A DNA stretch of 64,000 nt, from NCBI GenBank assembly GCA_029243485.1, contig JAQWRY010000075.1, positions 1 to 64,000 of the forward strand. Direction: 5' to 3'. The stretch is from Candidatus Binatia bacterium (GTDB taxonomy: Bacteria > Desulfobacterota > Binatia > UBA12015). Shown here piece by piece: positions 5,152-47,987 of this stretch. Position 1 is the stretch's first letter. Every line of letters starts with the position of its first letter. The position numbers and the translations under genes are program-made. Below the pieces are notes generated by a model, which saw nothing but the letters and a program-made list of their open reading frames with translations, did not search any database and was not told where the DNA came from.

Positions 5152-5799
5152 ATGCAAGTCTTTCACCGCAGCACGAACGTCCTGTCGCGAGTGACTCTCT
5201 TCGGCGGATTGTTCATCCTCGTTGCCGCCGTTTACCTCCTCGCGACGGTGAATCGCTCGCCTTGGGTCTCTCGCCAGGGGATCGCGCGAGAGCAGCCCAT
5301 CCAGTTCAGCCACAAGCATCACGCAGGCGAGCTCGGGATCGATTGCCGCTACTGCCACACCACGGTGGAAGAGCTCGCGTACGCCGGCATGCCGCCCACC
5401 CAAACCTGCATCAACTGTCACTCACAAATTTGGAGCGACAGCCCCTACCTCGAGCCCCTCCGTTCGAGCTGGCGCGACGCAACACCCATCGAGTGGACGA
5501 AGGTCTATGACCTTCCCGGCTACGTGTACTTCGACCACAGCGTGCACGTTGCGAAAGGCGTGGGCTGCACTTCCTGTCACGGCAATGTCGACGAACAGAA
5601 CGTCCTCTGGCAGGAGCCATCGCTGCACATGGAATGGTGCCTCGGCTGCCACCGTGAGCCGGAGAAATTCGTTCGGCCCAGAAGCGAAGTTTTCAACATG
5701 AACTGGGAGCCCCCGACCAACCAACTTTCCCTGGGGCTGAGCCTGATCGAGCTGAACGACATCGATCCACGGGAGGATTGCGGTGCCTGCCATCGTTGA
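5152..5799 (+). CDS. actA: Alternative complex III pentaheme cytochrome subunit ActA
   Basis: Membrane-anchored multiheme cytochrome c that receives electrons inside alternative complex III (quinol:electron acceptor oxidoreductase). An N-terminal transmembrane helix (residues 13-32, VTLFGGLFILVAAVYLLA) precedes five CxxCH haem c sites: CRYCH, CINCH, CTSCH, CLGCH and CGACH at the very end. His residues outside the motifs (SHKHH, FDHSVH) can serve as distal ligands. The length and five-haem pattern are typical of ActA. It overlaps actB by 17 bases and opens the operon. Confidence 0.95.
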   Translation: MQVFHRSTNVLSRVTLFGGLFILVAAVYLLATVNRSPWVSRQGIAREQPIQFSHKHHAGELGIDCRYCHTTVEELAYAGMPPTQTCINCHSQIWSDSPYLEPLRSSWRDATPIEWTKVYDLPGYVYFDHSVHVAKGVGCTSCHGNVDEQNVLWQEPSLHMEWCLGCHREPEKFVRPRSEVFNMNWEPPTNQLSLGLSLIELNDIDPREDCGACHR

Positions 5800-8700
5800 C
5801 AACGAATCGAAGACGCCCCGGCTCGACCTCGACCAGATCCGAGCCCGTCTCGAAGGAACCTCTGGCCCAACTTACTGGAGAAGTCTCGACGAGCTCGCGG
5901 GTAGCCCAGAGTTCGAGGACTTCCTTCATGCCGAGTTTCCTCGGCAGGCGGCCGCCCTGCCCGACGCCTCCTCAGGTGTGGCGCGAAGAGAGTTTCTGAA
6001 ACTCCTGGGAGCGTCGCTCGCGTTCGCTGGAGCCGCCGCGTGCACCCGCCAACCCGCGGAGAAGATCGTGCCCTCCGTGAAGGCCCCTGAAGACACGCCC
6101 GGTCGCCCACTGCAGTTCGCGACCGCGATGCCGGCAGCGGGATACGGTACCGGCCTACTCGTGCAGAGCCACGAGGGCCGACCGACGAAGATCGAAGGCA
6201 ACCCAGAGCACCCGGCCAGCCTCGGAGCAACCGACATCTTCGGCCAAGCCTCGATCCTCACCCTCTACGACCCCGATCGCTCGCAGGTCCTTCGCCAAAT
6301 CAACGAGGTCTCTTCCTGGAACGGCTTCATGTCCGAGATCGCCACCATTCTCGAGGCGCAGGAAAAGAGCGAAGGAGAGCGACTCCGGTTCCTCCTCGGA
6401 ACAGTGACCTCGCCAACTGTCGCCGCCCAGCTGGAGCGACTGCGCGAGCGCTATCCGCGGGCCGGCTTTCATTTTTGGGAACCAACGAATCGCGACAACA
6501 CGCACGCAGGCGCGGCTCTCGCTTTCGGAGATCCGGTCGACCAAGTCCTCCATCCGGAAAAGGCGGAGCTACTACTCTCCCTGGACGACGACTTCCTCGG
6601 CACCGGCCCAGAGCACCTTCGCCACATTCGAGAATGGTCGAAGCGCCGGCGACCGGCCGGAAAAGACTTTACAGGCACCCGGCTCTACATCGCGGAGAGC
6701 ACCTACACGGTCACCGGGTCCGTGGCAGACGAGCGTCTCGCGCTGCGCGCCACGGACGTCGGAGTCATCGCGCACGCGATCGCCTCCCGTCTCGGTCTCG
6801 GCGTCGACGCCCCTGATCTCTCGGAGAGAGAGAACGCATGGGTCGAGGCTGTCGCGCGAGACCTCCAAACGCACCGCGGGCGCGGTGCCGTCGTCGTCGG
6901 GGAGAACCAACCGCCAGCCGTGCACGCCCTTGCCTGGGCCATGAACGAGCGACTTGGAAACATCGGAGAGGCGATCGAAACGATCGAGCCCGTCGCCGCC
7001 TCCGCCCCAGCGCAATGGACGTCGATCTCAGAACTCGCCGGTGACATGCACGCCGGTCGGGTCGACGTCCTGTTCGTTCTGGAGTCGAATCCGGTTTACG
7101 ACGCACCCGCGGAGCTCGACTTCGCCGCAGCCCTCGAGCGCGTACCCCACGCCATCCACCTGGGGCTCTACGACGATGAGACCGCACACCTCTGCCGCTG
7201 GCACGTCCCGGCGGCACACTACCTGGAGGCTTGGGGCGACGTGCGAAGCGGCGACGGAACCGTCTCTCTGCAGCAGCCGCTGATCGCGCCCCTCTACCAG
7301 GGCAAGAGCACTCTCGAGATACTGGCCCTCGCGCTCGGCCTCTCCCAGCCCTCAGGATACGCCGTACTACGCGAGCATTGGAAGAACACGTGGAAGACGA
7401 GTGACTTCGAAGCTCGCTGGCAGCGGGCCCTGCGTGACGGGACGGTTGCAGGCTCTCGTTCTGTATCGCGTCGGTTCGCCTTGCGCAGCGACCTCGGCGG
7501 CGCGCTTCGCAATCTACCCAAACGAACCAAAGAGGGACTCGAGGTCGCCTACCGCATGCACCCGACGGTCGGCGATGGGCGCTTCGCGAACAACGGATGG
7601 CTCCAGGAGTGCCCCACGCCACTTGCCAAGCTGACCTGGGACAACGTCGTTCTTCTGGCACCCAGCACGGCGGAACAGCTCGACGTCCAGAACGGTGACC
7701 TCCTCGAGGTCACAACGCCCGGCGGGCGGGTGGAAGGGCCGGCCTGGATCCTGCCCGGCCAACCGGCGGGAAGTCTAGGCTTGCAGTTCGGGTACGGCCG
7801 GACGCGTGCGGGCAACGTCGGAACGAAGCGCGGCTTCAACGTGTACCCTCTCCGCACTTCGACGGCCCCCTGGTTCGCCGAGAGCACTGGTGTTCGAAAG
7901 GTCGGAAAGAGCCAAACCCTCGCGTGCACCCAGCATCACGGAACACTGGAAGGGCGACACATCGTCCGGTCGGGATCCGTCGCGGAGTACAATCGCGATC
8001 CCGCGTTCGCGCAACACCTGGTTCACGAGCCGGCGGTCGACGACACCCTGTATCCAAATCACAAATACGACGGACACGCTTGGGGCATGGCCATCGATCT
8101 AAACGCCTGCGTTGGCTGCAACGCCTGCCTCGTGGCCTGCCAGTCCGAGAACAACATCCCGGTAGTCGGGCCCGAACAAGTCGCGATGGGCCGCGAGATG
8201 CACTGGCTCCGTGTCGATCGGTACTGGACGGGAGACCTCGACGAACCGGAAGCGCACTACCAGCCAATGCTCTGCCAGCACTGCGAGCAAGCGCCCTGCG
8301 AGGTCGTGTGTCCGGTGAACGCGACCGTACACGACAGCGAAGGTCTGAACCTGATGGTGTACAACCGCTGCGTCGGCACGCGGTACTGTTCGAACAACTG
8401 CCCCTACAAGGTACGTCGCTTCAACTTCTACCTTTATTCGGATTGGGACACGGAGAGCCTCAAGCTCCAGCGAAATCCCGACGTGACGGTACGCAGTCGC
8501 GGCGTAATGGAGAAGTGCACGTACTGCATTCAGAGAATCAACCGCGGCCGAAATGAAGCTCGAAAGGACGGGCGACAGGTTGCCGACGGCGAGGTCGTGA
8601 CCGCCTGTCAGCAGGTCTGCCCGGCAGAGGCGATCGTCTTCGGAGACATCAACGATCCGGAAAGCCGCGTCGCGAAGCGAAAAGCCGACCCGCGAAACTA

Positions 8701-8805
8701 CTCGGTGCTCGCCGACCTGAACACGCGCCCCCGCACGACGTATCTCGCCTCCGTGAAGAACCCGAATCCCGCGCTCGAGGACAAAGACGAGGATCGAGGC
8801 CACTC

Positions 8806-8809
<4 letters not shown>
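5783..8809 (+). CDS. actB: Alternative complex III ActB (molybdopterin-like domain plus iron-sulfur domain)
   Basis: Large periplasmic subunit of ACIII. The GTG start overlaps actA. A Tat-like motif RREFLK at residues 68-73 precedes a hydrophobic stretch and Cys. The body is a molybdopterin-oxidoreductase-like fold, which in this family binds no cofactor. The last ~240 residues are a ferredoxin-like domain with four cysteine groups: CVGCNAC, CQHCEQAPC, CVGTRYCSNNC, and CTYC with CQQVC, enough for one 3Fe-4S and three 4Fe-4S clusters. The chain would carry electrons from the quinol site to ActA/ActE haems. 1008 residues is normal for the fused form. Confidence 0.95.
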
Positions 8810-10202
<1,393 letters not shown>

Positions 10203-10206
<4 letters not shown>

Positions 10207-10739
10207 ACGCGAAAAAGCACTACGGGATCATCGCCGAGTTCACGAACGTGACCTCTCTCGTTCGCGCCATCGAAGAGGCACGCGGCGCCGGCTACCGCGA
10301 CATGGACGCGTATACGCCGTATCCGGTCGAAGAGGTGTCCGAAGCCCTGGGCCACCACCGCTCCATCCTTCCTCTTCTCGTTCTGTGCGGGGGAATTCTC
10401 GGGGCCGCGGGCGGCTTCGCCCTCCAATACTGGACCTCTGTGATCGACTACCCACTGAACGTCGGAGGAAGGCCCTACAACAGTTTCATCTCGTTTATCC
10501 CGGTCGTATTCGAATGCACGATTCTGGTGGCGGCGCTCGTGACGGTTTTCGGAATGCTCGCCCTGAACGGGCTTCCGCGACCTCATCACCCGATCTTCAA
10601 CGCGAAGGACTTCGCGCTCGCGAGTCGCGACCGCTTCTTCCTCTGTCTCGAATCCACCGATCCGAAGTTCGATCTGACTGAAACGCGCGCCCTGCTCGAG
10701 GGCCTCGACGCGCACGCCGTGAGTGAAGTCGATGCGTAG
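10203..10739 (+). CDS. actD: Alternative complex III subunit ActD (DUF3341)
   Basis: Small ACIII subunit with an N-terminal soluble ferredoxin-like region (YGIIAEFTNVTSLVRAIEEA) and two transmembrane helices around residues 60-82 and 103-125. The family is DUF3341. The start overlaps actC by four bases. Its role is structural, bridging ActB and the membrane subunits. Confidence 0.93.
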
Positions 10740-11319
10740 ACTCTTTGCCTACTCCATTGTCACGTTGGCACCGCTCCTGCTGCTGGGCGGCTGTCGGCAA
10801 GACATGCACGATCAGCCGCGTTACGAGCCGAACAGCGCCAGCGCGTTCTTCCCGAACGGAACCTCCGTACGACCACTGGTCGAGGGAGTCGTGGCACGCG
10901 GAACCGTATTGGACGATCCCGCCCGTACGACCGGCAAGGTCGACGAAGAGCCGGTGATGCGAAACCCCATCCCGGTCGATGAAAAACTGCTCGAGCGGGG
11001 CCGGGAGCGGTACGGCATCTACTGCACGCCGTGCCATGGAGCCATCGGCGACGGGAACGGCATGATCGTTCAGCGCGGCTACCGCCGACCTCCGAGTCTT
11101 CACCAGGAACGGATCATCGCATCGCCCGACGGCTACCTCTTCGATGTGATCACGAACGGGTACGGCGTGATGCCGGCGTATCGAGCACAGGTACCAGTCG
11201 ATGACCGCTGGGCGATCGTCGCCTACATGCGCGCGCTCCAACTGAGCCAGACCGCCGAGCTCGAACGACTCCCCCCGGTCGACCGGCGCGCCCTCCTCGC
11301 TTCCGGAGGTGAGCCGTGA
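10732..11319 (+). CDS. actE: Alternative complex III monohaem cytochrome c lipoprotein ActE
   Basis: A lipoprotein signal peptide ending LLLGGC anchors a periplasmic domain with a single haem c motif CTPCH and a likely axial Met in GVMPAY. It is the mobile-type haem subunit of ACIII and hands electrons on, probably to the cytochrome c domain of CoxB. ATG 10732 overlaps actD by eight bases; an in-frame GTG at 10723 is an alternative start. Confidence 0.93.
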   Translation: MRRLFAYSIVTLAPLLLLGGCRQDMHDQPRYEPNSASAFFPNGTSVRPLVEGVVARGTVLDDPARTTGKVDEEPVMRNPIPVDEKLLERGRERYGIYCTPCHGAIGDGNGMIVQRGYRRPPSLHQERIIASPDGYLFDVITNGYGVMPAYRAQVPVDDRWAIVAYMRALQLSQTAELERLPPVDRRALLASGGEP

Positions 11320-12461
11320 CCGAACTCGCACCACTACGCCACCGCGCCCTTCGCATCGGGCTCCTCGCCACGATTGCGTGCATCGCCGGAGCCATCTACG
11401 ACCCGGAGCAGGCGGTCCGTTCGTACCTGATCGGTTACCTGTTCTGGCTCGGGATCGCGCTTGGAGCGCTCGCCATCCTCGCGATCCACTTCCTGGCAGG
11501 GGGTGCCTGGAGCGCGGTCCTTCGACGGCCCCTGGAGGCGGCGACACGCACCTTTCCGCTCCTCGCCCTTCTCTTCCTGCCGCTCGCGGCGGGGACAACG
11601 ACTCTCTACGAGTGGGCCCATCCGGGGGTGATGGAGCACGACCCCATCCTCGCGGCGAAGGCCTCGTATCTGAACGTTCCCTTCTTCTACCTACGCGCGG
11701 CGCTCTACTTCTCGGCCTGGATCCTACTCTCCTTTTTCCTCAACCGGCTGTCGATCGCGGAGGACGAGAACGCCGACCCGAAAGCCACGCAGCGCCTCGA
11801 GATGCTGGGACGCGGAACGCTCGTCGTCTACGGACTTACCACGACGTTCGCCTCAATCGATTGGGTGATGTCGCTGGAGCCCCATTGGTTCTCCATGATC
11901 TTCGGTCTCCTGATCATGGGGGAGCAGGTGCTGTCGGCCTTCACGTTCGCGATTCCTGTCCTCCTCTACCTTCGGTGGCGCGGATGGATCGGCGACGTCG
12001 TGAAGCCTCAGCAGATGCGGGACCTCGGGAGCTTCTTGCTCGCGTTCGTGATGATCTGGGCCTACCTCTCGCTCTCTCAGTTGTTGATCATCTGGTCGGC
12101 CAACTTGCCGGAGGAGATCAGCTGGTATCTGCGTCGGTCGACGGGCGGATGGAAGCTTCTCGCAACAGCTCTCGTCCTCTTCCACTTCGCCGTCCCCTTC
12201 TTCGTGCTGCTCTCTCGCAACGCAAAGACACACGCCGTCGTTCTCGGTGGCGTGGCGCTGTGGATCTTGTTCGGTCGCTGGATCGAACTCGTGTTGCTGA
12301 TTGTGCCCTCCTACGAGACCACCGGCTTCACCCTCCACCCGATGGACCTCGCCACCCCGGTTGCCGTTGGCGGCGTGTGGCTTTGGGCCTACCTCGGACA
12401 TCTCGGGCGCCACCCGCTCATCCCGCGCAACGACCCGTCGCTCTCGGAGAATAGTCCATGA
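11316..12461 (+). CDS. actF: Alternative complex III integral membrane subunit ActF
   Basis: Second NrfD-like polytopic subunit of ACIII, 381 residues with about ten hydrophobic helices (for example YLIGYLFWLGIALGALAIL and LVLFHFAVPFFVLLS). It is more diverged than ActC and has been proposed to take part in proton handling. GTG start with a GTGA overlap on actE. Confidence 0.92.
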   Translation: MTELAPLRHRALRIGLLATIACIAGAIYDPEQAVRSYLIGYLFWLGIALGALAILAIHFLAGGAWSAVLRRPLEAATRTFPLLALLFLPLAAGTTTLYEWAHPGVMEHDPILAAKASYLNVPFFYLRAALYFSAWILLSFFLNRLSIAEDENADPKATQRLEMLGRGTLVVYGLTTTFASIDWVMSLEPHWFSMIFGLLIMGEQVLSAFTFAIPVLLYLRWRGWIGDVVKPQQMRDLGSFLLAFVMIWAYLSLSQLLIIWSANLPEEISWYLRRSTGGWKLLATALVLFHFAVPFFVLLSRNAKTHAVVLGGVALWILFGRWIELVLLIVPSYETTGFTLHPMDLATPVAVGGVWLWAYLGHLGRHPLIPRNDPSLSENSP

Positions 12462-12868
12462 GCCACGAAAGAGACGCCATCGCGGCAAGGCCGATCTACA
12501 TCGGTCTGGGAGCTCTTCTGTTGCTCGTCGTTCTCGGCTGGGCCATCCCGACGTGGCTCGAAGTGCGGCTGGTCGACGAGCGAACCGCCAAGCTCCCGCC
12601 GGCGAACCCTTTGACAGAGGTCTACGGACGCAAGGTGCCGCCCGCGCCCCGTCTCCAGGTAAATCCCGACCGCGACATCGCAGCACTTCGGGCGGCCGAA
12701 AGAGAACGGCTGGATCACTACGGCTGGCTCGACCGAGCGACCGGGCGAGCCCACATTCCCATCGAGAGAGCCATGGAGCTCCTCGCCGAAGGCTACTCCG
12801 TACACCCGTCAAGAGATCCGAGACCGGCGGTATCGACCGCAGAATCCGAGCTGGGAGATACACCATGA
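12458..12868 (+). CDS. Membrane-anchored hypothetical protein of the act-cox operon
   Basis: 136 residues with one N-terminal transmembrane helix (IYIGLGALLLLVVLGWAIP) and a periplasmic, charged, Pro-rich tail. No haem, copper or FeS motif is visible. Unnamed genes of this shape commonly lie between actF and the SCO gene in ACIII operons, so it may be an accessory subunit or assembly factor. It overlaps both neighbours by four bases (ATGA), which argues strongly that it is translated. Confidence 0.75.
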   Translation: MSHERDAIAARPIYIGLGALLLLVVLGWAIPTWLEVRLVDERTAKLPPANPLTEVYGRKVPPAPRLQVNPDRDIAALRAAERERLDHYGWLDRATGRAHIPIERAMELLAEGYSVHPSRDPRPAVSTAESELGDTP

Positions 12869-13713
12869 ACCGCACTCTCTGTATCGCTCTCTTCTCCGCC
12901 TCCCTTCTCGCGCTGGCCACCGTCGCCGTCGCCCAGCCGACCGGTGCCAGGCGCAGCATCCTTTCTTTGCCGGAGATGGGTCGCCCCGCAATTCTGCGGG
13001 ACGTTGCCTTCGATCAACGACTCGGCGACTACGTTCCTCTTGATGTCGAACTGACCGACGAACAGGGGTTGCCCGTAACGCTCGGGGACTACCTCGGAAA
13101 ACGCCCGATCGTTCTCCTTCCGGCGTACTACAGCTGTCCGATGCTTTGCCCACTCACCATCGAGGGGGCCGCACGCGCACTGAAGACGCTCCCCTTCGAT
13201 GCCGGTACGGAGTTCGACGTTGTCGTCTTCAGCTTCGACCCCGAAGACACCACCAAGAGTGCCGCGAGACAGAAGACCACGGCCGTGGCTCGCTACGGGC
13301 GAGAAGATGGCACGGGCTGGCACTTTCTTACGGGAACGCCAGACTCGATCGAGAGACTCACCAAGGCGATTGGCTACCGCTACGCCTTGGACGAGAAGAG
13401 CGGAGAGTACGCCCACCCGGCCGGCCTCGTCGTCCTCACGCCGACCGGCCAGATCTCGCGCTACCTGTTCGGACTCGATCCGAGCCCCCGCGACTTGCGG
13501 CTCGCACTCGTCGAATCGTCTGAGGAGAAAATCGGGAGTCCGGTCGACCAAGTACTTCTCTTCTGCCTGCAGTACGACCCGAAACACGGGAAGTACAGCG
13601 CGGTCGCGCTCGACTCGATGCGGCTCCTCGCGGCGGCCACCGTGGCCGGCCTCGGGCTCTTCATCGGTGCCGCCCTCTGGCGGGAGCGCCGGAAGCCGAA
13701 GGGGGGAACGTGA
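12865..13713 (+). CDS. SCO1/SenC-type copper chaperone
   Basis: Periplasmic thioredoxin-fold protein that delivers copper to the CuA centre of cytochrome oxidase. It has a signal peptide (LLALATVAVA), the copper/thiol motif CPMLC, and the conserved downstream His in YAHPAGLVVL. A C-terminal transmembrane helix (LLAAATVAGLGLFIGAALW) is followed by a basic tail. Placement directly before coxB agrees with that job. ATGA overlap with the previous gene. Confidence 0.92.
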   Translation: MNRTLCIALFSASLLALATVAVAQPTGARRSILSLPEMGRPAILRDVAFDQRLGDYVPLDVELTDEQGLPVTLGDYLGKRPIVLLPAYYSCPMLCPLTIEGAARALKTLPFDAGTEFDVVVFSFDPEDTTKSAARQKTTAVARYGREDGTGWHFLTGTPDSIERLTKAIGYRYALDEKSGEYAHPAGLVVLTPTGQISRYLFGLDPSPRDLRLALVESSEEKIGSPVDQVLLFCLQYDPKHGKYSAVALDSMRLLAAATVAGLGLFIGAALWRERRKPKGGT

Positions 13714-14708
13714 TGCCCGAACTTCGGCTCTTTCCCGAGCAAGCGTCAACCATGGCAGGCCAGGTGGACCAGCTCTACTGGTTCATCACAGGCGTGAGTG
13801 GCTTCTTTGCGGTTCTCGTCGCCTCGCTGATTCTGTTCTTCGCAGTCCGCTACCGCAAGAAACCCGTTCGCACGGAACGGCCACAGACCAAGAGCGTTCT
13901 CGGCCTCGAACTCACATGGACGATCATCCCCTTCCTCATCTCGATGGTGATGTTCGTCTGGGGCGCGCAAATCTTCATCGCGATGAGGGAACCTCCGCCC
14001 GACGCGCTTCAGGTGTTCGCCGTAGGCAAGAGGTGGATGTGGAAGGTTCAACACCTCGAAGGCCGGCGGGAGATCAACGAACTGCATGTACCCGTCGGTC
14101 AAGCCGTGAAAGTGACCCTGACCTCGGAAGACGTGATCCACAGCTTCTACATCCCGGCATTTCGCGTGAAGCAGGACGCGGTACCGGGCCGTTACACGGA
14201 GTTCTGGTTCGAGGCGACGACCCCCGGCACATACCACCTCTTCTGCTCGGAATTCTGTGGCAGTCAGCACGCACGCATGATCGGACAGGTCGTCGCCATG
14301 GCGCCGGCCGATTACCAAGCCTGGCTTTCGGGCACGGAACGCGGCGCTCCCCAGCTCACGATGATGGAGGCCGGAGAGCGGTCTTTCGTCGAGTTGGGAT
14401 GCAAGTCATGTCACCAGAGCGGGGACAGTGGACGCGGCCCAACCCTGGCCGGACTCGCCGGCAGCGTCATTGAAATGTCGGATGGAACGCGACGCGTCGC
14501 CGACGCCGCCTACCTGCGAGAAGCCATCCTACGACCGCAGGCGAGCGTCCGCGCTGGCTACCAGCCGATCATGCCTACCTTCCAGGGGCTGATCAGCGAA
14601 GATCGGGTTCTCGAGCTGATCGCGTACATCGAATCTCTCGAGGAGCCGGCGCCAACCGTCGTCGCGGACGGAATACGCACCGAGGAGGACAACACATGGA
14701 CGCGATGA
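13713..14708 (+). CDS. coxB: caa3-type cytochrome c oxidase subunit II with fused cytochrome c
   Basis: Two N-terminal transmembrane hairpin helices (residues ~15-42 and ~67-90) are followed by the cupredoxin domain with the CuA site: a His in VIHSFYIP, then [12 protein letters not shown] around residues 178-190. A C-terminal cytochrome c domain carries CKSCH (about residue 230) and a candidate Met ligand in PIMPTF. The fusion makes this a caa3 oxidase that can accept electrons directly from ACIII. ATG 13713 shares one base with the SCO stop. Confidence 0.95.
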
Positions 14709-16330
14709 GCCCTGAGCAGTCGTCCGAGAACTACCTGAACGTCGACTACGGCGTTTGGTCGTGGCTCGCGACCAAAGATCACAAACGAATCGGCCTCCTC
14801 TACTTGGTCGGCATCACCGTCATGTTCGGACTCGGCGGCCTCGCCGCCCTCGCCATCCGCCTCGAGCTCCTCACGCCTGGCGGCGACCTCATGGGCGACG
14901 ACACCTACAACAAGATGTTCACCACACACGGTGTCATCATGATCTTCTTCTTTCTGGTACCCTCAATTCCGGCGGTACTGGGAAACTTCCTTCTGCCGCT
15001 GATGATCGGCGCCCGAGACCTCGCCTTCCCGCGCCTGAACCTCGCCAGCTGGTACATCTACATGCTCGGCGCCGGTGTCACTCTCGCAGCGATCCTGACG
15101 GGTGGAATCGATACCGGCTGGACGTTCTACACGCCGTACAGCACCGAAGGTTCGAATACGAACGTCACGATGGCCGCCCTGGGGATCTTCATCGCCGGCT
15201 TCTCGTCGATTCTGACCGGGCTCAACTTCCTCGTCACGATTCACCGAATGCGCTGCCCGGGGCTCACGTGGTTCCGCCTCCCCCTATTCGTCTGGGCGAT
15301 GTACGCAACCAGCATCATCTTCATCCTCGGGACCCCCGTGATCGCGATCACCATCCTGCTCGTGGCGGTCGAGCGAGCGTTGGACATCGGGATCTTCGAC
15401 CCAGCCCTCGGCGGAGACCCCATCCTCTTCCAGCATCTCTTTTGGTTCTACTCCCACCCGGCCGTGTACATCATGATCCTCCCGTCGATGGGTGTCGTAA
15501 GCGAGATCATCACTTGCTTCTCGCGTAACCGAATTTTCGGCTACACGTTCATTGCGGTCTCGAGCCTTGCAATCGCCCTTCTCGGATTTCTCGTCTGGGG
15601 TCATCACATGTTCGTTGCGGGGCAGTCCACGAATGCAGGGCTCATCTTCTCCTTCTTGAGTTTTGCCGTAGCGATTCCTTCGGGCGTGAAGGTGTTCAAC
15701 TGGACAGCGACGCTCTACAAGGGGTCCATCAGCTTCGAAGCACCGATGGTCTACGCACTGGGCTTCATCGGACTCTTCACGATCGGCGGGCTCACGGGAC
15801 TGTTCCTCGCATCCCTGGGCGTCGACGTTCACCTGACGGACACCTACTTCATCGTGGCGCACTTCCACTACATCATGGTGGGTGGGGCCGCGATGGCGTA
15901 CCTCGGCGCCTTGCACTTCTGGTGGCCGAAGATCAGCGGGCGGCTCTACTCCGAGGCTCTCGCTCGTATCTCCGCCGTGCTCGTCTTTCTCGGCTTCAAC
16001 CTGACCTTCTTTCCCCAGTTCCTCCTGGGCTATCTCGGAATGCCGCGGCGCTATCACGTCTACCCGCCCGAGTTTCAGGTACTGAACGTCTTCTCGACCG
16101 CCGGCGCGTCGATTCTGGGCATCGGGTACCTGCTGCCCCTGATCTATCTGGTCTGGTCGATGCGCTATGGACCTCGCGCGTCGAGCAACCCGTGGAATGC
16201 AGCCGGACTCGAGTGGACGACTTCGTCCCCGCCGCCGGCGCACAACTTCACAACGACCCCCGTCATCGACGGCGACGCGTACGACTACGTGCGGATTGAC
16301 TCGGACTCCAGTCATCGTGAGGTCGCCTGA
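14696..16330 (+). CDS. coxA: Cytochrome c oxidase subunit I (haem-copper, caa3)
   Basis: Catalytic oxygen-reducing, proton-pumping subunit with about twelve transmembrane helices. Landmark residues are visible: the haem a His in TTHGVIM, the CuB His-Tyr cross-link region [16 protein letters not shown], the His pair in WGHHMFVAG, and the haem ligands in [14 protein letters not shown]. The YSHP motif indicates the A-type family. It overlaps coxB by 13 bases; a second ATG at 14705 is possible. Confidence 0.96.
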
Positions 16331-34469: not shown

Positions 34470-35870
34470 CTATTTGCCCATGCGGCTCACCCGATCGACC
34501 TCGAAAATCTTGTCGTCGATCTGGATGTGGTACTCCGTGGGCAGGACGGGCATGCCGGTGACCGTCGCCCTATCCTGCTTGTAGTTCACGGCGAAAGCCG
34601 CGTTCCCGCCGGCGCCCGTGCGCAGGTAGAAGGGCTTGCCGTCGAAGGTCTTCGTCTCTGTGATGGGCATCGCCGGAGAGGCCCAGTTCGCAAGTGCGTT
34701 GCCCTTCCAGTCGTACTTGTTCTTCCAGTATCCGCGGAACGTGTCCTTGTCGAAGTACATGACCTGCTTGCCGTAGAGGTAGTACGGGTTCTTCGGGGTC
34801 GCCTCGACGATCCACACGGGGCGCGGCACCAGGGTGTACGCGATCGGCGCCCAGGCGACGAGATTCTCGCCGTCCTTGCGCTGCCAGTCGTCGAGCTGCG
34901 GCGGGATGAGAGGCACGTCCGGCGTGATCAGGCGCCAGCCGGTTCCCGCCTCGGGGACGAGCTTTGATACCTCTTCCTCGGGATCGAGAGGCTTCACGGG
35001 CGAGCCGTTCTCGAGGGCCGGCCCATCGAAGTGCGCAAGCACCTTGCCTTCACCAACGAGCTTGAATTCGAAATCTTCCGGTTTGCCGTCGAAGTACGGG
35101 CCGTCGTCGAGTGAGATGTCGGAGCCCAGTAAGCCGTCGGAACGATTCGCCGGATTGATCGGACGCACACGGCGAAGCGCGGGAACATACGTCCACGCGT
35201 TGTCTTCCTTGTCGCCGTCGCGGAAGCGCCAGTTCAGGTTCACGATCCCGTTCACGTCGGCCGGCTTCACGACGACACCCATCGTCCGAGCCAGAATGTT
35301 GAGCGGGTTCTCCCCGATCTTCTCCTGGAACTGCGGCGGATTGCCGTCGTAGTACTTGAAGTGAACGTCGGTCGAGATCCGGCGAAGCGGACCGTCGCGA
35401 GAGATCCAGTTCACCGGCGAGCTCGTGTGGAACGATCCCTCCCAGTACAGCGTGTAGAACCAGTTCCAGACCGCCTTCGAGCCAGCCTTCGGATCGTCGG
35501 GAGCGATGTCGGGGAACGGTCGGCCGCTGATGGTCTCGGGACGCTCGCCCGTCGCCTTGTCGACGACGGTCCCATGCTCGTCGATGTCGTACTTTCCGGC
35601 GTTCGCCGTCGACGCCTCGACGAGGTTCGGGTCGACGAGCCAGTCGTTCCCGCGCTTCTGGATGATGACGTTCTCGTAGTCCCCACGCTTGTAGAACTCG
35701 AGAATCTCGTCGGGGAGCGCACCCTTCGCGATCTCCCAATTCGTCTTGTTGAGCTTCGTCCCCGACGGCACCTCGTCGATCGGGTCCGCGTGGGCAATCG
35801 ACGCTAGGGGCAACAGCGCGGCGAGAACAACGACGGCGATCCGAAGTTGCGTACTGCAGGAGAGAGTCAT
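34470..35870 (-). CDS. DUF1329 outer-membrane-associated protein
   Basis: 466 residues with a signal peptide (VVVLAALLPLASIAHA). Sequence blocks such as GTKLNKTNWEIAKGALPDEI, LRRISTDVHFKYYDG and WKNKYDWKGNALANW match DUF1329, a LolA/LppX-like periplasmic family that usually lies beside a DUF1302 barrel. The pair is thought to move hydrophobic compounds across the envelope. Here the DUF1302 gene is on the same strand upstream but separated from it by an IS630 remnant. Confidence 0.9.
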   Translation of the reverse strand: MTLSCSTQLRIAVVVLAALLPLASIAHADPIDEVPSGTKLNKTNWEIAKGALPDEILEFYKRGDYENVIIQKRGNDWLVDPNLVEASTANAGKYDIDEHGTVVDKATGERPETISGRPFPDIAPDDPKAGSKAVWNWFYTLYWEGSFHTSSPVNWISRDGPLRRISTDVHFKYYDGNPPQFQEKIGENPLNILARTMGVVVKPADVNGIVNLNWRFRDGDKEDNAWTYVPALRRVRPINPANRSDGLLGSDISLDDGPYFDGKPEDFEFKLVGEGKVLAHFDGPALENGSPVKPLDPEEEVSKLVPEAGTGWRLITPDVPLIPPQLDDWQRKDGENLVAWAPIAYTLVPRPVWIVEATPKNPYYLYGKQVMYFDKDTFRGYWKNKYDWKGNALANWASPAMPITETKTFDGKPFYLRTGAGGNAAFAVNYKQDRATVTGMPVLPTEYHIQIDDKIFEVDRVSRMGK

Positions 35871-36033
35871 CGTCTATCCTTCAAAGGGTCGGGTGACTCC
35901 ATCGCAAGGTTCGAGTCGCCCATTCATCTGGCTCGGCACCGCGGGAGTGGTCAAGCGACCAATGCGCCTGGGGCCCGAACGAGCCCTAGAGTAATGTAAC
36001 TGCAGTGCCTGCATATACGCCATCTAATCCTGC

Positions 36034-36498
36034 ATGGGATATGCAGCTGAGGCGGTGCGGCTAAAGAAGGTCGCTCGAATTACTCTGGACTCATGGCTCC
36101 GTGCGCCGACGACGCTGTTCGCCGCTCTGAAAGTTGCCAGCGGGAAGGTGCACGGACGTTGCTACCCGCGCCGCGAGCTACACCTCACCCTCGACAACTA
36201 CGGGACGCACAAACATCCGAAGGTGAGAGAGTGGTTGGAGGCGCACCCGCGTGTCCATTTCCATCTCACGCCGACGAACAGCTCGTGGCTCAACCTGGTC
36301 GACCGGTGGTTTGGGTTGATCACCGATCAAGCGATTCGATGTGGCAGCTTGGATGGTGTGCCGCGCTTGATCCGGACGATCATGAGCTACCTCGACGACT
36401 GGAACCCAGACGCAAAGCCCTTTCGTTGGCTGAAGACGCCCACAGAGATCCGGCGCAAGCTACGTCGCGTTACAGAGATTTCGGATACACGACACTAG
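36034..36498 (+). pseudogene. IS630-family transposase, C-terminal fragment
   Basis: About 155 codons: TTLFAALKVASGKVHGRCYP, HLTLDNYGTHKHPKVREWLE (second catalytic Asp), and TPTNSSWLNLVDRWFGLITD, where the usual Glu of NLVE is Asp. The DNA-binding N-terminus and first catalytic Asp are missing, so it cannot transpose. It lies antisense between the DUF1302 and DUF1329 genes, and its stop overlaps the DUF1302 stop. Confidence 0.88.
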
Positions 36499-38282
36499 TT
36501 GATCTGATAGGTCGCTCGGATCCACGCCTCGTCGCGGTCCCGCAGCAACCCGGGACCGATCGAGTAGCCGTTATTGAGCGAGCCGAACGTGTGGGTCGTG
36601 ACATACTTGAAGTCGAACAGGAGAGTGTCGCTGAAGCGGTAGACGACCGACGGGCTAAACGTCAGCGAACCACGGTGCGTGCCGATCGTCGTGAGCTGTG
36701 GGGTTAGGGTCCCGTGCATGAAGTCCGACCGCAACGTGACCTGTGCGAACCCGCCGACCGGGTCCTGGTTCACGAAGTCGCACTTACGCTGAGTCTCGGG
36801 GATGCTCGGATCGTTCGGGTTGTCGCAGAACTTCCCGTTATAAAACCCGGCAGAGTCGCCCCCCTCCTGCTCGCGACGAATCGCCGACGGCTTCAGGATG
36901 CCGAGGGCCCGGTAGTCCTTCGACGAAGTCTCGTCCGTGTTCCAGAACCACACGATCGAACCGACCAGAAGAATGCTCGACGTCGGATTCAGCGCCGGAA
37001 CGAAGAAGTTGTAGTCGAGCCCGAACTCACCGCGGAGGATGTTCAGCCGATCGTAGTGGCCACGCTTCTGAAAGCCGCTCGCCTGGGCTTGCCCGATGTT
37101 CTTGAACGCAAGGAAGCCCGGCTCTCCGTTGAACAGCTCGACTTCTGTCCGGACAATCGAGTTGAGCATGTCGCTATACCAACTCACCGCGCCACCGATC
37201 ACGTTCGTGAGCTTGTTCTTGAGGGCGGTCGTGATCTGCTTCTGCGAATCGAGGCCGTAGACGACGGGAACCGGCTGAATCGGAAACGTCGTGTAGAACC
37301 AGGCCTGCAGATTGTAGTCGCGGTCGATGACGGTTTGGAGCTTCACACCCCAGCGGGAGTTCGCGGTCGACGGTTGCGGGAGTTGTTGGAAAATGTGCAG
37401 CGCCGCGCCGCTCACGCCGGGAGACGCGTACCCCTTCGACGCCGGCGGCTGCTGCGCAAATGGGCTCCCGCTCTGGATGACGAGCGGCGAGATCGTCGTG
37501 TCGAGCCAACCCGGAACCCAATACGCCTCCAAGAACGCACTCGACAGCGGCCCCATCACATCAAACAACTCGTAGGTTCCGCGGATCGTCCACAGCGGAA
37601 TCCGGGCCTCATCGAGATCGATCATGAGACCGGGCTGGATCGTCACGTCGAACGGGTTGTTGGCGTCGAGCAATCCGATCGTGTCGGCTTCACCCCACGA
37701 GATCGCTTGCCGTCCGATCCGCAGGAACCAGGGACCGTTTGCAAGATCGACGTACGCCTCGTTCACGCGGATCCGGCGGCCGTAGGTTCGTCGCGCTTGC
37801 CGCTCGTAGACCCCACCGGGAAACTCGACGGTCCCGTCCGCGGCGCGGCTAATCTGGGTTCCCTTACTTACCTGCTGCAGCTCGTGGTCCCCATACTGCG
37901 AGAGGACGGTCCGCCAACGATCGGGCCCGTAGTCGTAGAGCCCGTCGTAAAAGCCCCACAAGGCGACGCGGCCCTCGAACTCGTCGATCCACTTCTTCAC
38001 GGGCTTCGCGAGCCGCCGGAAATCCACCTCGAACTCCGGATTCATGAAGTTCCGGTGCTGGATCATGTCTCCGCCGTTGCGCGACGGAACGGCACCCGCC
38101 TGATTCAGCGCGGTGCCGTTGCTCTCCTTCTTGGACTTCTCGGTGGCGATCGAGAACTGTGTGTAGAACCGACCGCGCAGGGTGAAGGCCTCGTTCGGCC
38201 CGAACTCGAGAGCGAAGGCCGTCCCGGATGCCCCAAGGAGTATCGTGAGAGCGAGCGCGCCGCGCCCGATAGGTGAAGCCAT
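36495..38282 (-). CDS. DUF1302 outer-membrane beta-barrel protein
   Basis: 595 residues with a signal peptide (LTILLGASGTAFA). Features typical of DUF1302: FTLRGRFYTQFSIAT at the start, DEFEGRVALWGFYDGLYDYG, WFLRIGRQAISWGEAD and AWFYTTFPIQP, with alternating strands through the C-terminus. A large porin-like channel, probably for hydrophobic substrates, working with DUF1329. The protein ends in RATYQIN, so the IS630 remnant touches the gene's last codons without obviously truncating it. Confidence 0.9.
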   Translation of the reverse strand: MASPIGRGALALTILLGASGTAFALEFGPNEAFTLRGRFYTQFSIATEKSKKESNGTALNQAGAVPSRNGGDMIQHRNFMNPEFEVDFRRLAKPVKKWIDEFEGRVALWGFYDGLYDYGPDRWRTVLSQYGDHELQQVSKGTQISRAADGTVEFPGGVYERQARRTYGRRIRVNEAYVDLANGPWFLRIGRQAISWGEADTIGLLDANNPFDVTIQPGLMIDLDEARIPLWTIRGTYELFDVMGPLSSAFLEAYWVPGWLDTTISPLVIQSGSPFAQQPPASKGYASPGVSGAALHIFQQLPQPSTANSRWGVKLQTVIDRDYNLQAWFYTTFPIQPVPVVYGLDSQKQITTALKNKLTNVIGGAVSWYSDMLNSIVRTEVELFNGEPGFLAFKNIGQAQASGFQKRGHYDRLNILRGEFGLDYNFFVPALNPTSSILLVGSIVWFWNTDETSSKDYRALGILKPSAIRREQEGGDSAGFYNGKFCDNPNDPSIPETQRKCDFVNQDPVGGFAQVTLRSDFMHGTLTPQLTTIGTHRGSLTFSPSVVYRFSDTLLFDFKYVTTHTFGSLNNGYSIGPGLLRDRDEAWIRATYQIN

Positions 38283-43772: not shown

Positions 43773-43930
43773 ACCGGTCGGGTTCCCCTGACTTGTAGTG
43801 AGAGGCCGGTGGAGAGCCCAACGGCCACGAAAGGCAGCACATGCTGCCCACGAAACGCCGAGGGTTCAAGCTTTTTCTGCGGCCCCGCCGATTTGACCGG
43901 GCTTCGCGACCGGTCTAGGTGTCAGGATGT

Positions 43931-44350
43931 ATGTCGTGCATCTTCTGCCGCATCATCAGCGGCGAGACCCCGGCCCAAGTCGTGGCGCGCGACGAAGGCT
44001 CTACTGCCTTCCTCGATGTCTCGCCGCTGGCAGACGGGCATGTCCTCGTGATTCCCCACGCCCATGTCGCGCGTCTGGAAGATCTCGAGCCGACGGATGC
44101 GGACACCCTATTGCGCGCCGTGCGCCAACTCTCCGGGCCCATCCGGACAGCCGTGGGGGCCGACGGCACGACCATCGGAATCAACGACGGCGAGGCAACC
44201 GGACAGACCGTTCCACACGTGCACGTCCACATCGTACCCCGCTGGACCGGGGACGGAGCCGGAAGTGTCCACTCCATCTTTCCCAATGGGGATCGACGCG
44301 ACGTCGCTGAAGTCGGCGAAGCGATTCGCGCCGAACTCGAACGACGGTGA
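43931..44350 (+). CDS. HIT-family nucleotide hydrolase/transferase
   Basis: Histidine-triad protein, here HVHVHIVPR near the C-terminus, preceded by CIFCRIISGE and LVIPHAHV. Members hydrolyse nucleoside phosphoramidates or related dinucleotides. ATG 43931 (SCIFCRI) is preferred over GTG 43919. It reads into the bufferin cluster, 71 bases before the precursor gene. Confidence 0.93.
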   Translation: MSCIFCRIISGETPAQVVARDEGSTAFLDVSPLADGHVLVIPHAHVARLEDLEPTDADTLLRAVRQLSGPIRTAVGADGTTIGINDGEATGQTVPHVHVHIVPRWTGDGAGSVHSIFPNGDRRDVAEVGEAIRAELERR

Positions 44351-44421: not shown

Positions 44422-44691
44422 ATGAACAAGACGACCAAAGGTGCTGTAATCGCCCTTTCCGCTGCTGCCCTCTTTACCACTGGCAATGCCTTCGCCGGTT
44501 CGCACGGCGACGCACCCGCCGAGGGCGACGACGCCAAGGTTTCCTGCTCCGGCGTGAATGAGTGCGCGGGCAAGGGCCAGTGTTCTGCCAAGGGCAACGA
44601 ATGCGCAGGCAAGAACAAGTGCAAGGGAATGGGCGTCCAGAAGATGTCGGCCGAGGACTGTAAAGCCAAGGGCGGCAAAGCGGAGGGCTGA
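44422..44691 (+). CDS. bufA: Bufferin-type RiPP precursor (BufA2-like)
   Basis: 89 residues: a Sec-type signal peptide (VIALSAAALFTTGNAFA), a short acidic linker, and a Cys-rich core with six Cys arranged as SC, NEC, GQC, NEC, NKC and EDC, including the repeated NECAGK and KCKGMG units. This is the pattern of the BufA2 branch of periplasmic metal-buffering bufferins, in which an MNIO enzyme converts Cys residues of the core. GGAGG lies shortly upstream of the ATG. Confidence 0.88.
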   Translation: MNKTTKGAVIALSAAALFTTGNAFAGSHGDAPAEGDDAKVSCSGVNECAGKGQCSAKGNECAGKNKCKGMGVQKMSAEDCKAKGGKAEG

Positions 44692-44771
44692 GCCTCTCCT
44701 CCGGTTGGAGCGGAGCCCCGGGATGCTGCAAGGCGCCTCGGAGCTCCGTTTCGGACCGGGCCACGGCTCCC

Positions 44772-45659
44772 ATGCGAAACGAGTCCAACCTCGGCATCGG
44801 CATCGGTCTTCGGACGACGCACTTCGGCGAACTGCTGGAGCGCAAGGCCGACGTCAGCTGGTTCGAAGCCGTCTCCGAGAATTTCTTTATGGACGGCGGG
44901 CGGCCCCTTCACGTCTTGGAGCACGTTCGCCGCGACTACCCGGTCGTCTTCCACGGCGTCTCGATGTCGATCGGCACAACCGATCCGATTGACGATGCCT
45001 ACCTCGCGCAGATCCGCGAGCTCTCCCGGCGCTACGAGCCACCGTGGGTCTCCGACCACCTCTGCTGGACCGGCGCCAAGCGCCACAACCTCCACGACCT
45101 CCTCCCGTTGCCGTGGAATGAAGAAGTCCTCGCGCACGTGGTCGAGCGCGTAACGCGGGTACAGGACGCGCTCGGACGCCGGCTTGTCCTCGAGAACGTC
45201 TCCAGCTACCTCGCGTTTTCGAACTCGACGATGAGCGAGGCCGAGTTCCTGGTGGCCCTCGCCGAGACGGCCGACTGCCAGATTCTCCTCGACGTGAACA
45301 ACGTCTACGTGAGCGCCTTCAATCACAGATTCGATGCGGCTGCGTTCATCGATGCCATGCCAGCTGAACGCGTCGTGCAGCTCCACCTGGCCGGCCACAG
45401 CGACATGGGCACGCACCTTCTCGATACCCACGATGCACCCGTCTGTCCCGCCGTCTGGGAGTTATACCGACACACGATTCGCAGGCTAGGCCCCGTGCCG
45501 ACTTTGATCGAGTGGGATGGCAACGTTCCGCCGCTCGCGACGCTCGAAGCGGAAGTCGCGCTAGCCCGCGCGATCTGCAGCGAGGTCGCCGCCGAGGCCA
45601 AGGCGAGACCCGGAGCGAAGGGAGCGCCCGACCGTGCCGGACGAACCTTCGCTGCTTGA
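44772..45659 (+). CDS. bufB: BufB, DUF692 multinuclear non-haem iron oxidase (MNIO)
   Basis: 295-residue TIM-barrel enzyme of the DUF692/MNIO family that oxidatively rearranges Cys in RiPP precursors. Metal-ligand motifs are visible: WFEAVSENFF, VVFHGVSMSIG, WVSDHLCW, RLVLENVSSYL, ILLDVNNVYVSA and LHLAGHSD, supplying the His/Asp/Glu set. It lies 80 bases after the precursor and overlaps bufC by 26 bases. Confidence 0.93.
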   Translation: MRNESNLGIGIGLRTTHFGELLERKADVSWFEAVSENFFMDGGRPLHVLEHVRRDYPVVFHGVSMSIGTTDPIDDAYLAQIRELSRRYEPPWVSDHLCWTGAKRHNLHDLLPLPWNEEVLAHVVERVTRVQDALGRRLVLENVSSYLAFSNSTMSEAEFLVALAETADCQILLDVNNVYVSAFNHRFDAAAFIDAMPAERVVQLHLAGHSDMGTHLLDTHDAPVCPAVWELYRHTIRRLGPVPTLIEWDGNVPPLATLEAEVALARAICSEVAAEAKARPGAKGAPDRAGRTFAA

Positions 45660-46428
45660 TCTGCAGCACCAGCTCGAATCGCTGTTCTCCCTCGGAGGAA
45701 CACCGGACTACGAGGGGCGACTCGAAGCGGACGCGCCGGCCCTACCCATCCGCGGAGACGAGCGCCTGTCCGCAGCCGAGCGCATCGGCATCTACACCGC
45801 AATGATCTTCGCCCGCATACGCGATGCCATCGCCGAGGATTTCTGGTGCACCGCGCAGCTCCTCGGTGACGACTGGGAACCGCTCATCGCCCGCTATCTG
45901 GAGGCGCACCCCACTCGACACGCGGACCTACGACTCGCCGGTCGCAACCTCCCTGCGTTCGTGCGCGCGACGCAGCGAACCCCGCTCGCCGACCTGGCCG
46001 ATCTCGAATGGGCGTTGATCGATTCGTTCACTGCGGCCGACGCCCCCATCCTCCGCGCCGAAGCGCTCCAGGCGCTGGCGCCCGAGGCGTGGCCCGCCCT
46101 CGCACTGGAGGCGGTGCCTTCGTTGCGGCTTTGCAGGCCAACGTCCTCGTGCGACCGGACACGACGACGGATGCTCGAGGGTGAGGAGGCCGCGCTCGAA
46201 TCCGAAGAGGCCTTCCCCCTCCGGATCTGGCGCACGGAGTTCCGCGTGTTTCAGAAGCGCATCGACGAGTTCGAGTTCGGCGCGTTGAAGCTCGTCGCCG
46301 GCGGCACCACGTTCGCCGAACTGTGCACCTGGATCGCCGAGCAGGAAACCACCGAAGGCCCCTCCGAGGCGGCCGTGCGCCTACTCCAGCTCTGGCTCGC
46401 CGATGAGCTCCTCTCCTGCGGCCCATGA
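45634..46428 (+). CDS. bufC: BufC, DUF2063-type precursor-binding partner
   Basis: 264 residues. The N-terminal domain (LLDLQHQLESLFSLGG, then IGIYTAMIFARIRDAIAEDF) is the HvfC/BufC N-terminal fold; the rest has EWALIDSFTAADAP and LRIWRTEFRVFQKRIDEFE. BufC helps the MNIO enzyme bind its precursor. GTG start inside bufB. Its stop overlaps the next gene's ATG, so all three are coupled. Confidence 0.9.
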   Translation: MPDEPSLLDLQHQLESLFSLGGTPDYEGRLEADAPALPIRGDERLSAAERIGIYTAMIFARIRDAIAEDFWCTAQLLGDDWEPLIARYLEAHPTRHADLRLAGRNLPAFVRATQRTPLADLADLEWALIDSFTAADAPILRAEALQALAPEAWPALALEAVPSLRLCRPTSSCDRTRRRMLEGEEAALESEEAFPLRIWRTEFRVFQKRIDEFEFGALKLVAGGTTFAELCTWIAEQETTEGPSEAAVRLLQLWLADELLSCGP

Positions 46429-47432
46429 CTTTCTCGGCTCGCGGGATCCCGATCCACACCCGTTCTCTTTCGACCACGCTCCGCGAAGGCGCAGGCGGCG
46501 CAGTCGCCTTCGATGGGTACGTTCTCGACCTGAGGAAACGCGGCGCGGTCCCCGTCGGTGGGTACATCCAAGGGCCCGGTATCATCCACCACATGCAGCT
46601 GTCGGGCACAGTGGACCGAACGGTGCCCGCATATCGAGAGATCGAAGCTCAGATGCCCAGCGTCGCCTTCGAGGCCTCGCCGGGCACCGGAGGCGAAAGC
46701 TGCCGCGATCGGATCGGCAACGTGGCAGGGCTGATCGGTCTGCCGCTCGGCGACGGGTATCCGCGCGCGATCGGCCGCGAGATCGGCGGCGTCCTCGGCT
46801 GCTCCCACATTCTCACGCTCGCACAGCTGCTCGGCCCAACGATCGTGTGGGGATTGGAACGCGACGCCGAGCGCGCGGGCGGATCCGGGCGGCCCAGCGG
46901 AGAGCGCTTCTTTCGTCGAGATGTGACGGTGGACGGCTACGTGGACGGCGACGAGCTCCGCCTCCTCGCACAACTGAACGACCTCCACCTCCGCCCCGAG
47001 GCCGAGTGCGAGCAGACCACAGACCGCCTCGCCGAACAGGTCGAGGTTCGGGTCCAGGCGACGCTGTCTCTCGCCGGCATGGCAGTCTCCGGGGTCCTGG
47101 TCGAAGAGCGACGCCGAACCCTGGCGGACCTTGAGACCGCCCCCTGGCGCCCGCGCCCCGAGCGCGCGGCGCTCCTGGACGGCGGGAGCTTCGCCCGGGG
47201 GATCTCCGGCCACATCCTGCGCGGCTTCGGTCCCGGCGGAAACGACCGACCCGTGCTCGACACCTTCCTGATGCTCGCCCCGGCCACGATCCAGTGCCTC
47301 GCCTCATACCGCGACACCTGGACGAAGCTCGGCGGCTCGAAGCTCGCCGAATCCGGCGGTCACGCCGACTCCTGTTACATGTGGCGTGAACGCGGAGCGC
47401 TGCAGAAACGCCGCACGCCGTCGGCAGATTGA
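46425..47432 (+). CDS. DUF2889 domain protein coupled to bufC
   Basis: 335 residues with IHTRSLSTTLREG near the start, MQLSGTVDRTVPAYREIEAQ, and GCSHILTLAQLLGP, the signature of DUF2889. No biochemical function known. It starts four bases before the end of bufC (ATGA), so it is very probably expressed with the bufferin genes, although I do not know it as a standard member. Confidence 0.85.
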   Translation: MTFSARGIPIHTRSLSTTLREGAGGAVAFDGYVLDLRKRGAVPVGGYIQGPGIIHHMQLSGTVDRTVPAYREIEAQMPSVAFEASPGTGGESCRDRIGNVAGLIGLPLGDGYPRAIGREIGGVLGCSHILTLAQLLGPTIVWGLERDAERAGGSGRPSGERFFRRDVTVDGYVDGDELRLLAQLNDLHLRPEAECEQTTDRLAEQVEVRVQATLSLAGMAVSGVLVEERRRTLADLETAPWRPRPERAALLDGGSFARGISGHILRGFGPGGNDRPVLDTFLMLAPATIQCLASYRDTWTKLGGSKLAESGGHADSCYMWRERGALQKRRTPSAD

Positions 47433-47474: not shown

Positions 47475-47987
47475 GTGATGTTGGTCGCCGTCTTCATCGG
47501 CATCACAGTCATCGCGACAGAAGGTCAGGAAGTCGTCGTGCTCTCTACGCGGGCTCAGGACGGCTCGACCCGCCAGACGCGGGTCTGGGTAGCGGACGCC
47601 GACGGCGCGGCCTGGATCGAATCCGCGAACTCCGAGCGTGAGCTCTACGCCGACATTCGTCGGAGCCCGGCCGTCTCACTGTACCGTGACGGCAAATCCC
47701 GCCTCTACCTTGCGCGCTCGTTCGCCGACGCCGAGGGGAACCAGCGCATCCGATCTCTCCTGCGCGAAAAATACGGCTGGGCGGATAGGTGGCTACAGCA
47801 GCTGGTGGACACGTCGAAGTCGATTGCCGTTCGACTCGACCCGCCCCCGAACTTCATGGCGCCACGTCGGCAAGTCAGAGGTCCCGCGCCCGGAGCCGCT
47901 CCAACATCCCGCGGTTGGTCCACAACCAGGCAAGCGACAAGAGCAGCGGGAGCACCCGGCCGACCCATAGATCGTCCTGCATCGTGA
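47475..47987 (+). CDS. Hypothetical protein, pyridoxamine-oxidase/nitroreductase-like
   Basis: GTG/ATG start, a short hydrophobic N-terminus (VMLVAVFIGITVIA), then VVVLSTRAQDGSTRQTRVWV and YADIRRSPAVSLYRDGKSRL, which recall split-barrel flavin-binding oxidoreductases. From about 47865 the frame continues antisense over the flippase gene in low-complexity sequence, so the true end may be earlier or lost. Function unproven. Confidence 0.5.
   Translation: MMLVAVFIGITVIATEGQEVVVLSTRAQDGSTRQTRVWVADADGAAWIESANSERELYADIRRSPAVSLYRDGKSRLYLARSFADAEGNQRIRSLLREKYGWADRWLQQLVDTSKSIAVRLDPPPNFMAPRRQVRGPAPGAAPTSRGWSTTRQATRAAGAPGRPIDRPAS

Follow-up and report, generated by a model that had tools for sequence, protein, structure and literature searches.

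Among the described bufferin systems, the closest to the operon considered here is the Buf2 type (BufA2-BufB2-BufC2, captophorin; Cys-Lys precursor group), in which a six-cysteine precursor with a signal-like N-terminus, an MNIO and a DUF2063 partner are encoded in the order A-B-C. In a passage of Antoine et al. (2025, PMC12452194), the share of Buf2 precursors with six conserved cysteines is given as 90%, and a passage of Gadgil et al. (2026, PMC13097082) places BufA2 in the Cys-Lys group and assigns 5-thiooxazoles to the class. Formation of 5-thiooxazoles and copper binding are described for bufferin relatives in sections of the same two papers. The three Buf2 components and their order are shared by the window, as the whole 64,000-nucleotide stretch of Candidatus Binatia DNA analysed here is called. 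The window differs from the Buf2 cluster in two respects: its lineage adds a DUF2889 gene 3' of bufC, and bufC is not directly followed by a DoxX gene. Extra genes of unknown role in MNIO operons have precedents in adjamnio-V and adjamnio-VI, which, as part of PMC12452194 describes them, lie directly 3' of the MNIO gene, whereas the DUF2889 gene lies 3' of the partner gene.

The Buf2 cluster itself is of an already known kind, and what is new is the lineage-limited fourth gene. No published report of a DUF2889 gene in a bufferin operon was found, and neither PMC12452194 nor PMC13097082 mentions DUF2889 in its main text. Among the papers searched, two do name DUF2889, in passages that make no link to bufferins: a De-DUFing paper of 2015 connects it with a SCOP superfamily that the passage leaves unnamed (PMC4520260), and a Burkholderia study includes, in the part concerned, a DUF2889 gene in its list of genes under positive selection (PMC7253759).

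The operon and its precursor

The four genes occupy positions 44422-47432, just as the initial annotation had placed them (Table 1), and its description of a bufferin cluster was borne out. The precursor and the MNIO scored above the NCBIfam cut-offs for BufA2 (60 bits) and BufB (310 bits), the MNIO also matched PF05114 (366.6 bits), and the DUF2063 partner was present, with a score above the PF09836 cut-off of 27.2 bits. The HvfC model matched BufC weakly (25.7 bits, below its cut-off of 142). The hydrophobic, signal-like N-terminus of BufA was recognized by a hydropathy script. Its six cysteines (residues 42, 48, 54, 61, 67 and 80) were counted in the repeated NEC/KC units that had been claimed for it, namely VNECAG, GNECAG and NKCKG, the last of which would fit the Cys-Lys group of PMC13097082. 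By its gene content, the operon is an ordinary Buf2-type bufferin cluster.

Table 1. Features of the bufferin operon and its immediate surroundings in the window.
Feature	Position	Strand	Description	Score
HIT-domain gene	43919-44350	+	upstream neighbour; context, probably outside the system	PF01230, 86.8 bits
bufA (bufA2)	44422-44691	+	89 aa; six-Cys precursor, signal-like N-terminus	NF050166, 65.8 bits
RNA hairpin	44689-44775	+	bufA-bufB gap	-49.4 kcal/mol, z -2.95
bufB	44772-45659	+	295 aa; MNIO (DUF692) bufferin maturase	NF050167, 375.9 bits
bufC	45634-46428	+	264 aa, GTG start; DUF2063 partner of MNIO (PME-type 1)	PF09836, 45.9 bits
DUF2889 gene	46425-47432	+	335 aa; two repeats of a four-strand-plus-helices unit	PF11136, 52 bits
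PPOX/F420-type flavin-reductase-like gene	47475-47987	+	3' of operon; context	all family matches below cut-off

By comparison with characterized relatives, BufB and BufC would act in the cytosol and convert cysteines of BufA2 by oxidation to 5-thiooxazoles, after which the modified peptide would be exported by Sec and would bind excess copper in the periplasm. The gap between bufA and bufB holds a strong stem without a U-run, and a stem at z ≤ -2.5 was found in this gap in nine of the 12 loci folded, while none was seen in the remaining three (L089, L096 and L097). The stem sequences were, by eye, unlike between most loci. The hairpin is probably a transcript-processing or attenuation element favouring the precursor over the enzymes, and would in this way raise the ratio of precursor to enzyme.

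Elsewhere in the window, the gene set at positions 5783-16330 points to a locus for alternative complex III and an oxidase: it encodes ActD of this complex together with a COX1 subunit, an iron-sulphur protein and a protein of the NrfD type.

Recurrence, loss and synteny

A match to the window DUF2889 protein was found in nine of the order's 14 genomes. The five relatives nearest to it, with 52-57% identity along almost the entire length, are, like itself, encoded directly 3' of bufB-bufC. A seventh, in G002, has its upstream side cut off by a contig end and is followed by the same peroxiredoxin gene as is found at most of the other loci. Adjacency was read from tblastn, because the gene caller had missed bufA and some of the DUF2889 frames. 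In all six complete cases, spread over four genera, the DUF2889 gene is contiguous and co-directional with bufC, at distances of -4, -4, 47, 67, 75 and 92 nt. The translational coupling proposed in the initial annotation is therefore not a general feature: an ATGA does serve as both bufC stop and DUF2889 start in the window, where bufC also overlaps bufB by 26 nt, but such an overlap occurs in only two of the six loci (the window and G009). Since the order A-B-C-DUF2889 recurs in five other genomes at the level of divergence given above, it is not a product of chance.

The six bufferin-linked DUF2889 proteins form one clade (support 91/83) in a tree built from 26 of the 43 matches, some of them without their first residues; the matches not used were fragments, rows with a single domain and a number of paralogues. 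A single origin of the adjacency is therefore sufficient. At the bufferin loci, the DUF2889 tree is compatible with that of BufB, a pattern that fits joint vertical descent of the two genes. There are 15 bufB copies in the order, distributed over 11 of the 14 genomes, of which six have DUF2889 beside them, eight do not, and one is cut. One of the eight is the second bufB of the window's own genome (L101, G000:C72:152394-153119), with TAG and TAA inside its frame; this second bufferin locus looks decayed.

An intact syntenic cluster does not always hold DUF2889. Two genomes of the window's genus, G010 and G011, retain the order HIT-bufA-bufB-bufC-PPOX and a six-cysteine BufA, and tblastn gave no DUF2889 match between their bufC and PPOX genes. 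In each, the only near-full-length two-domain DUF2889 is a distant paralogue located elsewhere (32-34% identity), as far as assemblies of 450 contigs that are 92 and 87% complete reveal, in which a relocated copy could be hidden. As both genomes group with the window in the BufB tree (98/98), with the DUF2889-bearing G009 outside, the absence is best read as a loss, which would make DUF2889 dispensable for keeping the cluster. The PPOX/F420-like gene, which follows DUF2889 in the window, adjoins bufC in these two genomes.

The surroundings of the operon are conserved as well. A convergent peroxiredoxin gene lies on the opposite strand 3' of DUF2889 in five of the six loci, the HIT gene precedes bufA in five of the six (the window and four of the other five) as well as in G010 and G011, and gene families c5 and c7 are found upstream of the operon in many loci. 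Because this flanking block is itself conserved, the persistence of the bufC-DUF2889 pair argues only weakly for joint function. Six cysteines are present in BufA of the window and of seven other syntenic copies, and within the family the pattern is the same with or without a DUF2889 neighbour.

Among 148 genomes of the class, bufB (E ≤1e-40) was detected in 94, PF11136 (E ≤1e-5) in 55, and a two-domain DUF2889 (at least 150 bits, a threshold set after the list had been viewed, with one partial match counted) in 23. All 23 of the latter carry bufB, against 71 of the 125 others (Fisher p 1e-5, kinship ignored), and the result is similar for all 30 DUF2889 genomes of the search that gave these 23 (28/30 against 66/118; p 8e-5, kinship again ignored). 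The initial annotation had linked DUF2889 with DUF692 genes, and a survey of such neighbourhoods brought to light the five further cases and the contig-cut one, but all of these belong to a single family-level lineage. Beyond the six known pairs no adjacency was found in the 148 class genomes, many of them fragmented assemblies, when the lists of places were compared by eye; in this survey, recurrence beside bufBC is confined to the one family. The nearest DUF2889 outside it, in G372, does not share a contig with bufB. Of 297 sampled genomes of the phylum, 89 have DUF2889, 10 an MNIO match, and six both, so that 83 of the 89 DUF2889 genomes had no MNIO match; the two genes stood together only in the window, in lists compared by eye and with contig ends that may hide cases. 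For DUF2889, a single-sequence search of the genome contig collection gave no relative; with a profile, the same collection yielded four members of the family along with two relatives that have a single domain, and the viral contig collection none.

The DUF2889 protein and its other settings

The PF11136 match covers residues 11-139 of the window protein, well above the cut-off of 25 bits. Single-domain DUF2889 proteins consist of one unit, whereas the window protein consists of two copies of it; the H, C and GC(S/T)H motifs and a C-terminal SC.MW are common to both. An AlphaFold model computed from seven sequences showed the two repeats (pLDDT 76.9, pTM 0.79). A simple hydropathy script saw no signal-like N-terminus, and the highest 19-residue hydropathy, 1.55 at residues 123-141, falls on a helix of the model and is slightly below 1.6, the usual threshold for a membrane span. 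On these two grounds the protein is probably cytosolic.

Six residues (H11, H55, C93, C126, H128 and C317) are invariant in seven aligned rows, two single-domain relatives among them, and could constitute a metal site. The best Foldseek match had an E-value of 5.1e-3 (none ≤0.001), and the best VIA-align matches were MHC class I-like platforms (Z 9.0, rmsd 4.1 Å, 165 residues) for the whole model and chain G of an RNF complex (Z 7.0, 114 residues, 3.2 Å) for the N-domain alone, both values being near the level that the alignment tool calls common. A platform of the MHC class I kind is an eight-stranded sheet built from two repeats, with helices lying on it. Neither method gave a confident enzyme match for this model, and the comparisons are at most a hint that the fold is a binding platform. 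An IscU/SufE-like fold, prompted by the order of the motifs, was considered and set aside: in a test of similarity to NifU_N, hhalign of a DUF2889 profile (46 unique sequences longer than 90 aa, from 85 found) against 19 NifU sequences returned a probability of 1% and P 0.05 over 22 columns. Four further comparisons gave P 0.12-0.68, and even the lowest of the five values is not significant. The SufE family was not detected in 21 relatives, and NifU-type chains were absent among the fold matches listed for the whole model and the N-domain, an absence that carries little weight.

Outside the bufferin loci, two-domain DUF2889 genes keep varied company. By tblastn, the 20 other loci fetched comprised six in which the gene lies before clpS-clpA, one before aat, four beside phzF, and nine with none of these. 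The clpS-clpA cases (L071, L073, L075, L076, L077 and L078) come from six genomes, all of family f4, from which eight loci were fetched; a further f4 genome, G363, yielded just a fragment that is outside the count. The link concerns the best-scoring copy of each of the six genomes; in G362 and G105 a second copy is present as well (L072 and L079), and this one is not before clpS-clpA. The aat case (L074, G380) lies outside f4, and the phzF cases account for four of the six loci fetched from family f98. Gaps to clpS or aat are about 57-157 nt, several with promoter-like letters before clpS, as judged by eye. In eight loci of the window's own family, no DUF2889 match was found in the stretch fetched around clpS-clpA. 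Single-domain relatives on four annotated plasmids (4 of 22 records) are located in CoA-transferase or acyl-CoA gene sets, and no annotated MNIO was present in the 5-7 kb shown around them. One of these genes, on an Azoarcus plasmid, is near a DUF1329-DUF1302 pair; adjoining DUF1329 and DUF1302 genes also occur in the window, at 34470-38282 on the minus strand.

Possible roles of the fourth gene

The reading tentatively preferred here, with a probability just short of even, is that DUF2889 is a co-transcribed, lineage-restricted and probably cytosolic accessory of the Buf2 operon. Its co-transcription, its location in the cytosol and any action on the bufferin are what we infer. The reading is favoured by the curated-model matches of BufA2 and BufB, the co-directional contiguity in all six loci, the absence of conflict between the trees, the invariant Cys/His set and the co-occurrence with bufB across the class, and is weakened by the missing gene in G010 and G011, the presence of DUF2889 at only six of 15 bufB copies, the G372 locus, the 83 of 89 phylum-sample genomes without MNIO match, and the conserved synteny. 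In its most likely mode, the two-domain platform would work alongside BufBC ahead of export, binding either the precursor or else a metal or cofactor, and would be of use in some conditions but not essential. A role in bufferin maturation is possible, and one in periplasmic metal release or export seems less likely, given that the simple hydropathy script shows no signal-like N-terminus.

Only slightly less likely than an accessory is a gene of unrelated function, metabolic or in proteostasis, that arrived 3' of bufC in the ancestor of the family and was kept there by block synteny; this too has a substantial chance of being correct. One origin of the adjacency would be enough for it, and it accommodates the two same-genus genomes without the gene, the peroxiredoxin adjoining DUF2889 in most of the loci, the clpS-clpA, aat and phzF settings of other two-domain copies, the plasmid-borne relatives in CoA-transferase and acyl-CoA sets, and the rarity of MNIO matches in DUF2889 genomes of the phylum sample. 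It is less at ease with the short gaps or overlap in the same direction at every complete locus, with persistence over four genera, and with bufB in all 23 class genomes that have a two-domain DUF2889.

A dedicated second tailoring enzyme, adding a further modification to the peptide, is unlikely. The invariant Cys/His set and the place of the gene 3' of the core maturation genes would suit such an enzyme, and part of PMC12452194 suggests that other bufferin-operon genes of unknown role may encode modifying enzymes, but the BufA cysteine pattern within the family is indifferent to a DUF2889 neighbour and no enzyme fold was matched with confidence, a result that excludes nothing. Least probable is that two-domain DUF2889 is a bacterial platform for binding peptides whose structure recalls the MHC class I groove. 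It would then have been recruited to N-degron proteolysis (clpS-clpA in one family, aat in another) as well as to RiPP maturation (bufBC), where it would present or protect the precursor for BufBC.

For the accessory reading, as for its main rival, the window and either G010 or G011 form a natural pair with and without the gene in one genus. If DUF2889 acts on bufferins, a function would be gained for a family that Pfam lists as unknown, and a new accessory for a large class of copper peptides. If it does not, the locus would serve as a warning that an overlap with a RiPP gene, kept over genera, may reflect a syntenic block and not function.
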